NCBI GenBank assembly: GCA_937950065.1
Contig: CALFEN010000130.1
Location: 1-6,144 of the forward strand
Source: an uncultured bacterium
GTDB taxonomy: Bacteria > Patescibacteria > JAEDAM01 > Absconditabacterales > Absconditicoccaceae
DNA: 6,144 bases
Reading direction: 5' to 3'
The notes beneath the pieces were generated by a model. It saw only the letters and a program-made list of their open reading frames with translations, did no database searches and was not told the origin of the DNA. This document shows positions 1 through 6,047 of the stretch, one piece after another. Numbering within the stretch: the stretch's first letter is position 1; each line of letters opens with the position of its first letter. Position numbers and translations under genes: made by a program.

Positions 1-459
1 AACCATAATATCACTACAGAAATTCCGACAATGCCAACCCCACGGCAGCCTGTTTACGAAAACAATAAAAAGATTTTTGAGAAATTGGATATAAATAATA
101 ATACAATACTAATATGATTTAGCTGCTGATCTGCTTTTCTAATACGCCGGCTTGGTGAGAGCAAAAAAATCGTGAAAAAACTCATTTTGGTAGCTCCACG
201 GAAGATAGCAGAAGATAAGAATCCTTTGAAAGAAATTTTTTATGATTTCCAAGTAGATAAAACTATAAAAGACAGAATTAAAAATATAACATTTTTTACT
301 TCAGACAATGAAGAAGTTGAGGGCAAGGAAAGTCTAAAAATCTTCCACGAAGCTATCTGATGAAAAATTATTAGTCTAAAAAATCACTGACATTATATTT
401 TTGGAAATATGTTAACAGTAGAATTTCCAGAATTATTAAAAGAGATTTTGGGAAAGTAA
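1..459 (+). CDS. RBBP9/YdeN-family serine hydrolase (alpha/beta hydrolase), 5' truncated by window edge
   Basis: The frame is open from base 1 to TAA at 457-459 only if TGA is read as glycine (TGA at 115, 127, 358, 361 and 388); 152 residues are visible, against about 180-190 for the family, so roughly 30-40 N-terminal residues lie outside. Numbering from the window start, the nucleophile elbow is G-F-S41-C-G at 39-43, with both glycines encoded by TGA and Phe where His is usual. It follows the beta-strand NTILI and precedes KKLILVAP. The likely acid is D102 in TSDNEE and the likely base is H131 in NHGHY, followed by the family ending EFPELLKEIL. Members are small cytoplasmic hydrolases of mostly unknown substrate, so none is assigned. 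Three CGG codons (43, 148, 199) occur. Those at 148 (after Arg CGC, before LGES) and 199 (after VAP) sit where I recall Trp in relatives (RWL.E, VAPW). The family call is firm; the substrate is unknown. Confidence 0.85.
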
Positions 460-529: not shown

Positions 530-1171
530 ATGTCAGAAAGATTAATTGATAAAAGTAGCGACATCGATCCTTTGCTTACCAAAGGTAAGCTCAATTTAAC
601 AGCTGAAGATTTATTGAAAGATGCTTGATGAGATATATCAAAGGCTGTGAAAGAAGAGCAGGAGTTATTGAGTATAAAAGAAGAGCAATTAAAAATTACT
701 TGTCCTAAAGCCTGTGAATTGTATCAAAAGCGAAGTAAGTATACAAAAGATATTTATAAATCAACACAGAATCCTCTTTCTGAACTTAAGGGTTTATTGG
801 AATTAGATAATCAGATTATATATTTTTTTGAAAATAATTTATCTACAGCCTTTGCAAACGCTGATAAAATTTTGCAAGGCTTGGATATGAATAAAGACCA
901 TCTTAATAAATGACTTGAAACTATGCCTTTTGGTCAATATTGTCAAATGCTAAATGAAGTATATTCTATATATTCTGGAGATTCTTTTTTGTTTTTTAAG
1001 TTGTGAATTATGAAAGACAATATTTGAAAGGAACTTTTTTTGAGGTTTGTTTTGAATATATCTTCAAAAAATGAATTGTGAATCGAAAAGGGTAAACAAG
1101 AACTTGTTCAATATATTATCTGATATCATATTATGTATAAAGAAAGTCCATTTGCTCCTCAAAAACAATAG
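530..1171 (+). CDS. Hypothetical protein, 213 aa, predicted cytoplasmic and mostly helical
   Basis: The frame runs from ATG 530 to TAG 1169-1171 with seven TGA codons read as glycine, including a tandem pair at 626-631. I do not recognise the family. The protein is rich in Lys, Glu, Leu and Ile, with a charged stretch around residues 35-55 (KAVKEEQELLSIKEEQLK) that could be a helix or short coiled coil. C58 and C62 form a CxxxC pair; there is no convincing membrane segment or signal peptide. The C-terminal half is more hydrophobic and aromatic. The start at 530 is preferred because the strong promoter places the transcript start near 500. An in-frame ATG at 485, with a Shine-Dalgarno-like AAGGGA before it, would add 15 residues but lies inside that promoter. 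The gene ends 10 nt from the convergent miaB. A CGA codon at 731 (residue 68) may not be Arg. Confidence 0.75.
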
Positions 1172-1194
1172 AAATCCTTTTTTAGATTCTTTTT
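1170..1194. terminator. Possible weak hairpin between convergent genes
   Basis: AGAA(A)TC at 1170-1176 can pair with GATTCT at 1185-1190, leaving one bulged A and an 8-nt loop, and a short T run (1190-1194) follows on the plus side. It spans the TAG of the upstream gene and the TAA of miaB. It has only six pairs, mostly A-T, so it may be chance. It is listed because the two genes converge here with only 10 nt between them and no better terminator is visible. Confidence 0.25.
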
Positions 1195-2639
1195 GCTTCC
1201 AGCTTTAATGCTTCGGCATGAATAACCTCAGCTTTGACAAAGTTATTTAGACTTTCATCGTCCACATCTCTGACTATGAAGTTTTTTAGTTTTTCATCGT
1301 ATCACATTCATATTCAATTTTGGATATTTGTAATCAAGATATCTTTTATTTTACCGACTTCTTTTTGATTATTTTTAGAAGATATCTTTAAAAGTAAATC
1401 ATTTAGCATATTTCGTCTTTTTTCTTTGATCTGACTGGAGATATTGTCTTTGTAAAGTTTGTCTGCTAAAGTCAGCGGTCTTGATGAATAAAGTCAAATA
1501 TAAATCATATCAAATTTGGAATATTCTACCAAATCCAGCGTTTTTTTGAAATCTTCATCAGTTTCATTCGGAAATCACACTATAATATCTGTAGTTATAC
1601 TTATATCTCTTTTTAGATTTTGAAGTTTGGAAATAAAAGATTTAAACTGTTCTGAAGAATATCATCTGTTCATTTTTTTGAGAATTTCATCGCTGCCCGA
1701 CTGCAACGGTATATGTATTTGCGGACAAAGTTTTTGCTCATTTTCGTGTAGAGCAAAAATTTCATCGCTGTAATATGTAGGATAAGGAGAAGTATATCTG
1801 AGCCGTTTTAGTCAGTCTAGTTTTAGTATGCTTTTTAGGATATTTAAAAAATCTTTGTGTTTGTTTACTATTTGTCAGACAAGTATTATTTCAGTTTTTC
1901 AGTTTTTTAGATGAGATTTTACTTCTTCCAAAATTTCTTCAGTATTGCGGTTTTTCTCCAGTCATCTAGCAAACGGCACTATACAATAAGAACAAAATTT
2001 ACTACAACCCGTCTGTATTGGTACAAACGCTGTTTTGCTGCTGTCAGTAAAAGCAAAATTCGGATTATCAGGAATGATAGAAATATAATTTTGAAGTTTC
2101 TTATCGTTGACACTTACATCATAACCAAGTTTGGTCAATATCTCCGGCAGATGATGCAAATCATCAATTCTAAATAAAAGTTCAAGGTTTGGAAATTTCT
2201 TGATAAAAGTAGTAAAAAGCGGAATATATGCATAATTTACAAAAACATAGTCAGAAAGTTCCTGCTTTGAATTTAAGTAAATTTTTTCTTTTTCACTTAT
2301 TTTTTGCAATCAGATGATTTGCGGATTTTCATTAGTTTCTGGTAAAAAATTTCATTTTTTGAATTTCTGTCATTTCATCCAAAAAAATTTACCCGGATTT
2401 AGATCGTGCTGTATCATACAGCCTGTAATCCAGATTTTTTTGGATTTAGGAATATCTTTGAGTATGCCGGAAATTTTGTCTTCTGCTTTTTGTCTGACAG
2501 AGCAAGTATCAAAAATCACTACATCAGCTTCGTCTATACTTGTGCAATATTGCCAGCCTAGGTTTTGCAGCCGGACTTTGATTCTGGCACTGTCAGAGTA
2601 ATTCATCTGGCAGCCGTATATTAGTATATGGAATTTCAT
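1182..2639 (-). CDS. miaB: tRNA-2-methylthio-N6-(dimethylallyl)adenosine methylthiotransferase MiaB
   Basis: The product has 485 residues from ATG (2637-2639) to TAA (1182-1184), with 13 in-frame TGA read as Gly. MiaB is a radical SAM enzyme with two [4Fe-4S] clusters that adds a methylthio group to i6A37 of tRNAs reading UNN codons. The N-terminal UPF0004 domain shows GCQMN (C10), DTCSVR (C46) and TGC (C74), the three ligands of the auxiliary cluster. The radical SAM motif is C212-x3-C216-x2-C219 followed by IVPFARG. Later landmarks are IHIPLQSGS, TDIIVGFPNET (Gly of VGFP is TGA) and YSSRPLT; the end (about 425-485) is a TRAM-like RNA-binding tail. About 80 residues separate C74 from LLFRIDDLHHLPEIL, against about 20 in E. 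coli MiaB, so the N-domain carries an insertion. The GCQMN signature favours MiaB over RimO or MtaB. No Shine-Dalgarno precedes the start. CGG codons at residues 23 and 279 and CGA at 409 could be Trp; the conserved Arg sites use AGA. Confidence 0.92.
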
Positions 2640-2898: not shown

Positions 2899-5325
<2,427 letters not shown>

Positions 5326-5450: not shown

Positions 5451-6047
5451 ATGAACAGATTTAAAGATGGTATTAAGTTAGGATTATGATTTGTTTTTAT
5501 CTTGTCAGTATTTATGATAATCTGTGGAACATGATACTGGCTGCTAAAAGCAGAACGGGCAAATACCAAATCAACAACTGATGCGTCACCTGCGTGAGTA
5601 TTATACAGTACAGCATGAACCACGTTGACAGCACAAAAATGGAATGAGCTGGTAGATAGGACGAAGGTAAATTACCTGAACCAGGCATTTACAAATTGAG
5701 ACGTTACTTTAACTACTTCATATCAAAATATCTCAACTTTTACGATGACGACATGAAATAGTCCTGTTTTATTATCTATGAATGGTTTTATATCAAGTTC
5801 TACAACTTCTTCAGTTAATTATTGTTGGATTCGGGTAGATTGAGTAGTACAGAAAGGTTGATATTATTATGATAGTGTTACAGCAGGGAATCCAAGAGCT
5901 TTAAATTTTTCAGTTATAACAGATGTTCTTACTGCTTGATCTCATACTTTTTTATTCAAATGTAAGGCAAGTGTTAATTGAGCTGTACTTTACAGAAGTA
6001 GTACTTATGGTAGTTTTAATATGTCAGCAGTGGAGTTGAAACAGTAA
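5451..6047 (+). CDS. Membrane-anchored or secreted beta-rich surface protein with a KWNELV motif
   Basis: The 198-residue frame runs from ATG 5451 to TAA 6045-6047, with ten TGA read as Gly. A short basic N-terminus (MNRFKDGIK) leads into a hydrophobic helix at about residues 10-32, a signal peptide or signal anchor. No lipobox is convincing: C25 is preceded by bulky Ile. After a Thr/Ser/Ala linker comes TLTAQKWNELVDRT (58-71). That motif resembles the LTAxxWN.LV helix seen near the start of many tail-fibre-like and exported patescibacterial proteins. The rest (about 75-195) is Ser/Thr-rich and looks all-beta, with RVDGVV and LTAGSHTFLFK like jelly-roll receptor-binding or adhesin domains. 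These likenesses are from memory and no specific family is claimed. The likely location is the outer face of the cytoplasmic membrane or outside the cell, and a role in attachment to a host cell is an inference. CGG codons are at residues 36 and 128. Confidence 0.8.

Follow-up and report, generated by a model that had tools for sequence, protein, structure and literature searches.

The 6,144-base stretch of DNA analysed here in full (the window) probably derives from a member of the Absconditabacteria, or from a lineage very near to them, whose genetic code would read UGA as Gly and both CGA and CGG as Trp; from sequence comparison, we put the probability of this reading at about 95%. Within the window itself, the Trp meaning of CGG is supported by all three CGG codons of a hydrolase gene and by one of the two CGG codons of a miaB-like gene. 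The Trp meaning of CGA appears very likely, with support at the level of the clade and one decisive site in the window, residue 409 of the MiaB-like protein. The recoding of CGA and CGG is already in print at the clade level, and the window adds a lineage to it.

The window has a GC content of 0.296 and contains five main frames when read with translation table 25 (TGA = Gly). These are a gene of the Ser_hydrolase family (PF06821, Pfam E-value 5.9e-06; positions 1..459, forward strand), the 5' end of which is cut by the window, a second ORF without a Pfam family on the forward strand, a miaB-like gene on the reverse strand (1182..2639; UPF0004 and Radical_SAM, E-values of 3.7e-19 and 6.5e-29), a gyrA-type gene (2899..5325, forward strand; DNA_topoisoIV, E-value 3.8e-158), which was used to place the lineage, and a gene for a short protein without a Pfam family (5451-6047, forward strand), for which we keep the term "surface" from the original prediction. 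The window yielded no Rfam match at gathering score, and no tRNA genes were found within its 6,144 bases. Its 1,876 codons, including five stops, comprise seven CGG, three CGA, nine TGG and 67 TGA; the Arg-type codons are 41 AGA, eight AGG, three CGT and two CGC, and the window thus shows both low GC content and AGA as the main Arg codon. The original prediction had listed CGG codons starting at positions 43, 148 and 199 of the hydrolase gene, at residues 23 (2573) and 279 (1805) of MiaB and at residues 36 (5556) and 128 (5832) of the surface protein, together with a CGA codon at MiaB residue 409 (1415), and each of these proved to be in frame. Two further CGA codons were present at residue 83 of the second ORF (731) and residue 799 of GyrA (5293).

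The window was placed by means of its gyrA-type gene. Seven of 60 genomes from the class of genome G002 contain a GyrA with 56-61% identity to that of the window over at least 787 residues; the remaining GyrA matches of at least 600 residues in the 60 class genomes reach at most 45% identity, and shorter matches with 54-67% identity occur in G054, G055 and G062. All seven genomes belong to the order of G048, which comprises 49 genomes and also includes G001-G006 (called the order in the following). A scan of contigs for GyrA gave six relatives with best-segment identities of 49-59%, and the GyrA of G005, also from this order, shows 49% identity in its best segment; one sequence of the GyrA set (L002) was dropped because it represents the same gene as L027. 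The lineage of the window is absent from the genomes searched, and its best full-length GyrA relative shows 61% identity, suggesting that the lineage is new and its code already known. We infer the identity of the clade as Absconditabacteria from this code.

The three CGG codons of the hydrolase gene fall on nearly invariant Trp columns. We aligned the best 120 of 739 database homologues after removing the window's own protein, and all following counts refer to the remaining best 119 of 739. Residue 15 of the hydrolase (CGG at 43..45, forward strand, in the motif MPxPW) corresponds to W in 115 and R in four homologues, residue 50 (148..150, forward, in R-W-LGE) to W in 116 and R in three, and residue 67 (199..201, forward, in LVAPW) to W in 117, R in one and K in one, and all three are read here as Trp. 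The four, three and one R residues in these columns are taken from database translations with unseen codons behind them. A few of the homologues are assigned by their source to Paceibacterota or Buchananbacteria, which presumably use the standard code. As controls, R occupies residue 49 (CGC) in 118 and residue 92 (AGA) in 113 of the 119 homologues. These data bear out the idea that CGG means Trp (W in 115-117 of 119, with the clade columns in agreement), as well as the expectation that the CGC directly preceding the CGG at 145-150 yields the sequence R-W; the motifs RWLGE and VAPW, named in the original prediction, are indeed present in homologues. At the DNA level, four of 24 hydrolase loci from the order were scored, the other 20 being weak matches (E-values of 6e-9 or worse), and locus L084 was trimmed at 750 bases because its frame continues into another gene. 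The four close relatives all carry TGG at residue 15; at residue 50 they carry TGG, CGA, TGG and a Tyr codon, and at residue 67 CGA, CGA, TGG and an Ala codon.

The codon alignment of MiaB comprised the window and 32 of the 43 genomes of the order in which a match occurred. The column of residue 279 (CGG at 1803..1805, reverse strand), where Trp had been considered plausible beforehand, consists of 11 TGG, 17 CGA and five CGG codons and nothing else among the 33 sequences including the window, and that of residue 409 (CGA at 1413..1415, reverse strand) of 17 CGA, 14 TGG, one CGG and one His codon in the same set; both residues are read as Trp. The same three codons also share the column of residue 70, at which the window itself has TGG (26 TGG, five CGA, two CGG). 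Residue 23 (CGG at 2571..2573, reverse strand) corresponds to V in 25 and I in seven of the other 32 sequences, which is slightly against Trp (ln(W/R) of -1.61). The MiaB matches in seven TGA-recoded genomes from outside the order were all split or partial, with at most 48% identity, and were left unused for codon meaning. The CGA codon of GyrA residue 799 (5293..5295, forward strand) is located in the variable C-terminal tail, where 12 relatives have M (six), L (three), F, R and K (one each), and the score is again slightly against Trp (ln(W/R) of -3.52). For residue 83 of the second ORF (CGA at 731..733, forward strand), a search confined to the order found a match in none of the 49 genomes. 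Homologues of the surface protein were likewise absent from the 49 genomes, and a database search with this protein returned only two relatives beyond the window's own. Both have Tyr at residue 128 (CGG at 5832..5834, forward strand), which leans to Trp, and both have R at residue 36 (CGG at 5556..5558, forward strand), which looks like Arg and is not settled by these two translations, as the codons behind them are unseen. In total, five of the ten CGA/CGG codons of the window are assigned to Trp, one leans to Trp, and four (MiaB 23, GyrA 799, residue 83 of the second ORF and surface residue 36) do not decide; these four, one of them possibly Arg, do not overturn the Trp reading.

We further scored codon meaning over four families, containing 33 miaB, 13 gyrA, five hydrolase and 30 trpS sequences (the latter from 30 of the 46 genomes with the gene), as the summed log ratio to background, with CGA and CGG masked and the own sequence excluded. 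Over the clade, CGA scored +296.1 for W and -194.9 for R at 98 sites, and CGG scored +62.7 for W and -40.0 for R at 19 sites. For the window, five of the seven CGG codons could be scored and gave +12.4 for W and -8.4 for R, four of them lying in Trp-majority columns, one of which is a tie; the two scored CGA codons gave sums of +2.7 for W and -1.8 for R, decisive for Trp only at MiaB 409. The 50 scored of the 67 TGA codons gave +92.1 for G, with the next best residue at -43.9, and 41 of these 50 lie in Gly-majority columns, showing that the window also uses UGA as Gly. The control codons behaved as expected from their known meanings, with AGA, AGG, CGT and CGC scoring as R, TGA and GGT as G, AAA as K, CAA as Q and TTT as F. 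A control for TGG with every TGG masked fails by design (W -110.4), and we used a majority count instead, by which 128 of 174 TGG codons lie in Trp-majority columns.

If CGG and CGA were still standard Arg codons, their positions in Trp columns would have to result from chance or from tolerated substitutions. A few codons fit such a reading, as both database relatives have R at surface residue 36 and MiaB 23 and GyrA 799 lie outside Trp columns, but the distribution of the codons leaves it virtually no probability. The 41 Arg columns of the four clade families contain 740 AGA, AGG, CGT or CGC codons and not one CGA or CGG, and the ten Trp columns contain 114 TGG, 57 CGA and 13 CGG; if columns with at least half Arg or at least half Trp are counted, the values are 900 Arg codons without any CGA or CGG in 57 columns, and 131 TGG, 67 CGA and 15 CGG without any other Arg codon in 14 columns. 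Seven of the ten CGA/CGG codons of the window were scorable; five of these share their column with a TGG codon of a relative, and none lies in an Arg-majority column. Such TGG-containing columns make up 34 of 1,444, resulting in a hypergeometric P of about 1e-7 for this placement; the same five sites are TGG-majority columns (12 of 1,444; P about 3e-10), although at hydrolase residue 67 W and Ala are tied at one each when CGA is masked. By comparison, 47 of the 54 other Arg codons of the window were scorable, of which 32 fall in Arg-majority columns and none where a relative has TGG. The earlier observation that conserved arginines avoid CGG and CGA therefore holds (0 of 7 scored CGA/CGG vs. 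32 of 47 other Arg codons in Arg-majority columns), and the homologue-column check proposed along with it, run here on relatives, returned Trp instead of Arg profiles for both codons. As a method control outside the clade, we inspected the conserved Arg in the motif R-A/S-TQGV of GyrA, which six of 23 class members encode by CGA or CGG (counted by eye), indicating that the codons behave as Arg there. Together with the three nearly invariant hydrolase Trp columns, all of which hold CGG, the column counts refute the standard Arg meaning for the sites tested.

Two readings closer to the preferred one were also weighed. CGG alone could have changed to Trp with CGA remaining Arg, a change of CGG being suggested in PMC8629427 for some of the sister group Gracilibacteria, and the window offers a single decisive CGA site, since GyrA 799 lies in a Lys-rich tail and could be Arg; we regard this as very improbable, because the CGA codon of MiaB 409 shares its column almost entirely with CGA and TGG codons and the clade closest to the window by full-length GyrA is the one that reads CGA as Trp. 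Both codons could also be decoded ambiguously, mostly as Trp and partly as Arg, representing an intermediate stage of reassignment. The few codons at non-Trp places (surface residue 36, GyrA 799, MiaB 23) would agree with this, but the lack of any CGA or CGG at Arg-majority columns of the four clade families makes it a highly unlikely explanation. The reading of both codons as Trp is preferred. We do not claim that a CGG-rich code is special to the lineage of the window: the share of CGG among CGA and CGG codons is 7/10 in the window vs. 15/113 in the order over the four families (Fisher P of 2e-4), but the numbers are small, and several relatives come close in their CGG frequency per 10,000 codons (about 37.6 in the window; 45.5 in G071, 34.4 in G072, 32.2 in G093 and 30.4 in G077, based on mechanically picked ORFs that may include false ones).

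The tRNAs for the two codons were surveyed in the relatives. The 49 genomes of the order were searched with a tRNA model (R1), built from two CCG tRNAs and used with stricter filters, and the matches were read with ARAGORN; 70 loci were read among the matches listed, and for G002 the reading covered 28 of 36 tRNA matches. Because the model derives from two CCG tRNAs, it favours look-alikes, and a differently built Arg-type CCG or UCG tRNA could have escaped the survey. A CCG tRNA was found in at least 39 genomes, a UCG tRNA in at least 13, and either of them in at least 43 of the 49. Among the matches listed, G73 is present as parsed in 38 of 39 CCG and 12 of 13 UCG tRNAs, the parser having placed the ends wrongly in G003 and G016 (CCG) and in G095 (UCG); the 1:72 pair is A:U in 37 of 39 CCG tRNAs and G:U (seven), A:U (three) or G:C (two) in the UCG tRNAs, with one misparse, and A20 occurs in none of the 52 CCG/UCG rows. 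Both Arg(UCU) tRNAs of G002 and G006 have A73 and A20, and all four Trp(CCA) tRNAs have A1:U72 and G73. ARAGORN labels the CCG/UCG genes as tRNA-Arg, as in standard anticodon naming. According to the rules given in PMC8629427, G73 and a base other than A20, supported by A/G1:U72, mark Trp acceptors, and by these rules the CCG and UCG tRNAs of the order are provisionally classified as Trp acceptors. The anticodon check suggested at the outset, run on relatives, thus gave Trp-type and not Arg-type features among the matches listed. A trpS gene is present in 46 of the 49 genomes, with a second copy above the curated cut-off only in G083, so that a single TrpRS probably charges tRNAs of both anticodon types; a weak second trpS match in G072 falls under the cut-off. 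In G056, G070 and G067 (L141, L143, L146), trpS adjoins a cluster of 5 to 9 tRNA genes within the locus, the first being tRNA-Gln(UUG).

The anticodon loops of the two tRNA types differ. Most CCG tRNAs have A37 in a CUCCGAA loop (among the matches listed, two of 39 read by eye), the four tRNA-Trp read have CUCCAAA, and 12 of 13 UCG tRNAs among the matches listed have CUUCGGA with G37, which we take to be an Arg-type loop. It is conceivable, but rather doubtful, that the tRNAs which took over CGG and CGA have separate origins, the CCG tRNA arising from a tRNA-Trp by an anticodon change (A36G) and the UCG tRNA from an old tRNA-Arg by a change of identity; if true, two routes would have led to one reassignment within the same clade. 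Similarity of the tRNA bodies was uninformative on their origin, as the mean best identities of the 39 CCG sequences were 0.717 to UCG, 0.694 to Trp and 0.686 to Gln(UUG) tRNAs in a comparison with the whole set of tRNAs retrieved, which includes few Trp sequences. In G001, a UCG tRNA gene precedes a tRNA-Trp(CCA) gene on the same strand at a distance of 72 bases (L185:180-252 and 325-398), and in G002 the two are on separate contigs. G074 contains a tRNA-Trp(CCA) with a D-arm like those of the CCG tRNAs (L216:81-152) and has more R1 matches than any other of the 49 genomes (15 among the matches listed).

In the proposed mechanism, low GC content would first have made CGA and CGG rare enough for a change of meaning, as argued in PMC8629427. 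The CCG and UCG tRNAs, which in the relatives carry the Trp-type features G73, usually A/G1:U72, and no A20, would be charged by a usually single TrpRS despite their G36. The two codons, which occupy conserved Trp columns but none of the conserved Arg columns tested, would thereby specify Trp, and Arg would be left to AGA, AGG, CGU and CGC. The database copies of two window proteins, P0001 (5451-6047) and P0004 (1-459), were translated with TGA as W and CGG as R, both of which would be wrong on the Trp/Gly reading; the proteins of this contig should therefore be retranslated with both codons changed. With the window, one of the few sense-codon reassignments reported for bacteria gains a lineage as well as many aligned codons.

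The survey of codon meanings cited in the original prediction is that of Shulgina and Eddy 2021 (PMC8629427), and its content is as described there: in addition to the use of UGA as Gly, CGA and CGG are predicted to mean Trp in Absconditabacteria, and the tRNAs are consistent with this. By the paper's own words, the prediction is computational and experiment alone can establish a reassignment. The same CGA/CGG reassignment is stated for Absconditabacterales in PMC13092985, and the literature searched, which covered few subscription journals, contained no further reports of it. The Absconditabacteria (SR1) share with the window UGA as Gly, CGG as Trp and very likely CGA as Trp, AGA as the main Arg codon and Trp-type CCG/UCG tRNAs (seen here in relatives), and the GC content of the window (0.296) compares with 0.26-0.38 for the four CGA/CGG clades of PMC8629427. 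The sister group Gracilibacteria likewise reads UGA as Gly, with CGG predicted as Trp in some members and as Arg in others (PMC8629427). Seven class genomes with in-frame TGA in GyrA but outside the 56-61% group, which are probably Gracilibacteria, have a GyrA with 38-43% identity to that of the window. In Anaerococcus and an RFN20 clade of Bacilli, UGA is not known to be read as Gly. Like the window, these two groups are described as reading CGG as Trp instead of Arg, and they have a CCG tRNA with Trp-like features; unlike the window, they belong to the Bacillota (Firmicutes in the paper), and their CGA stays Arg, presumably read by an ICG anticodon (PMC8629427).
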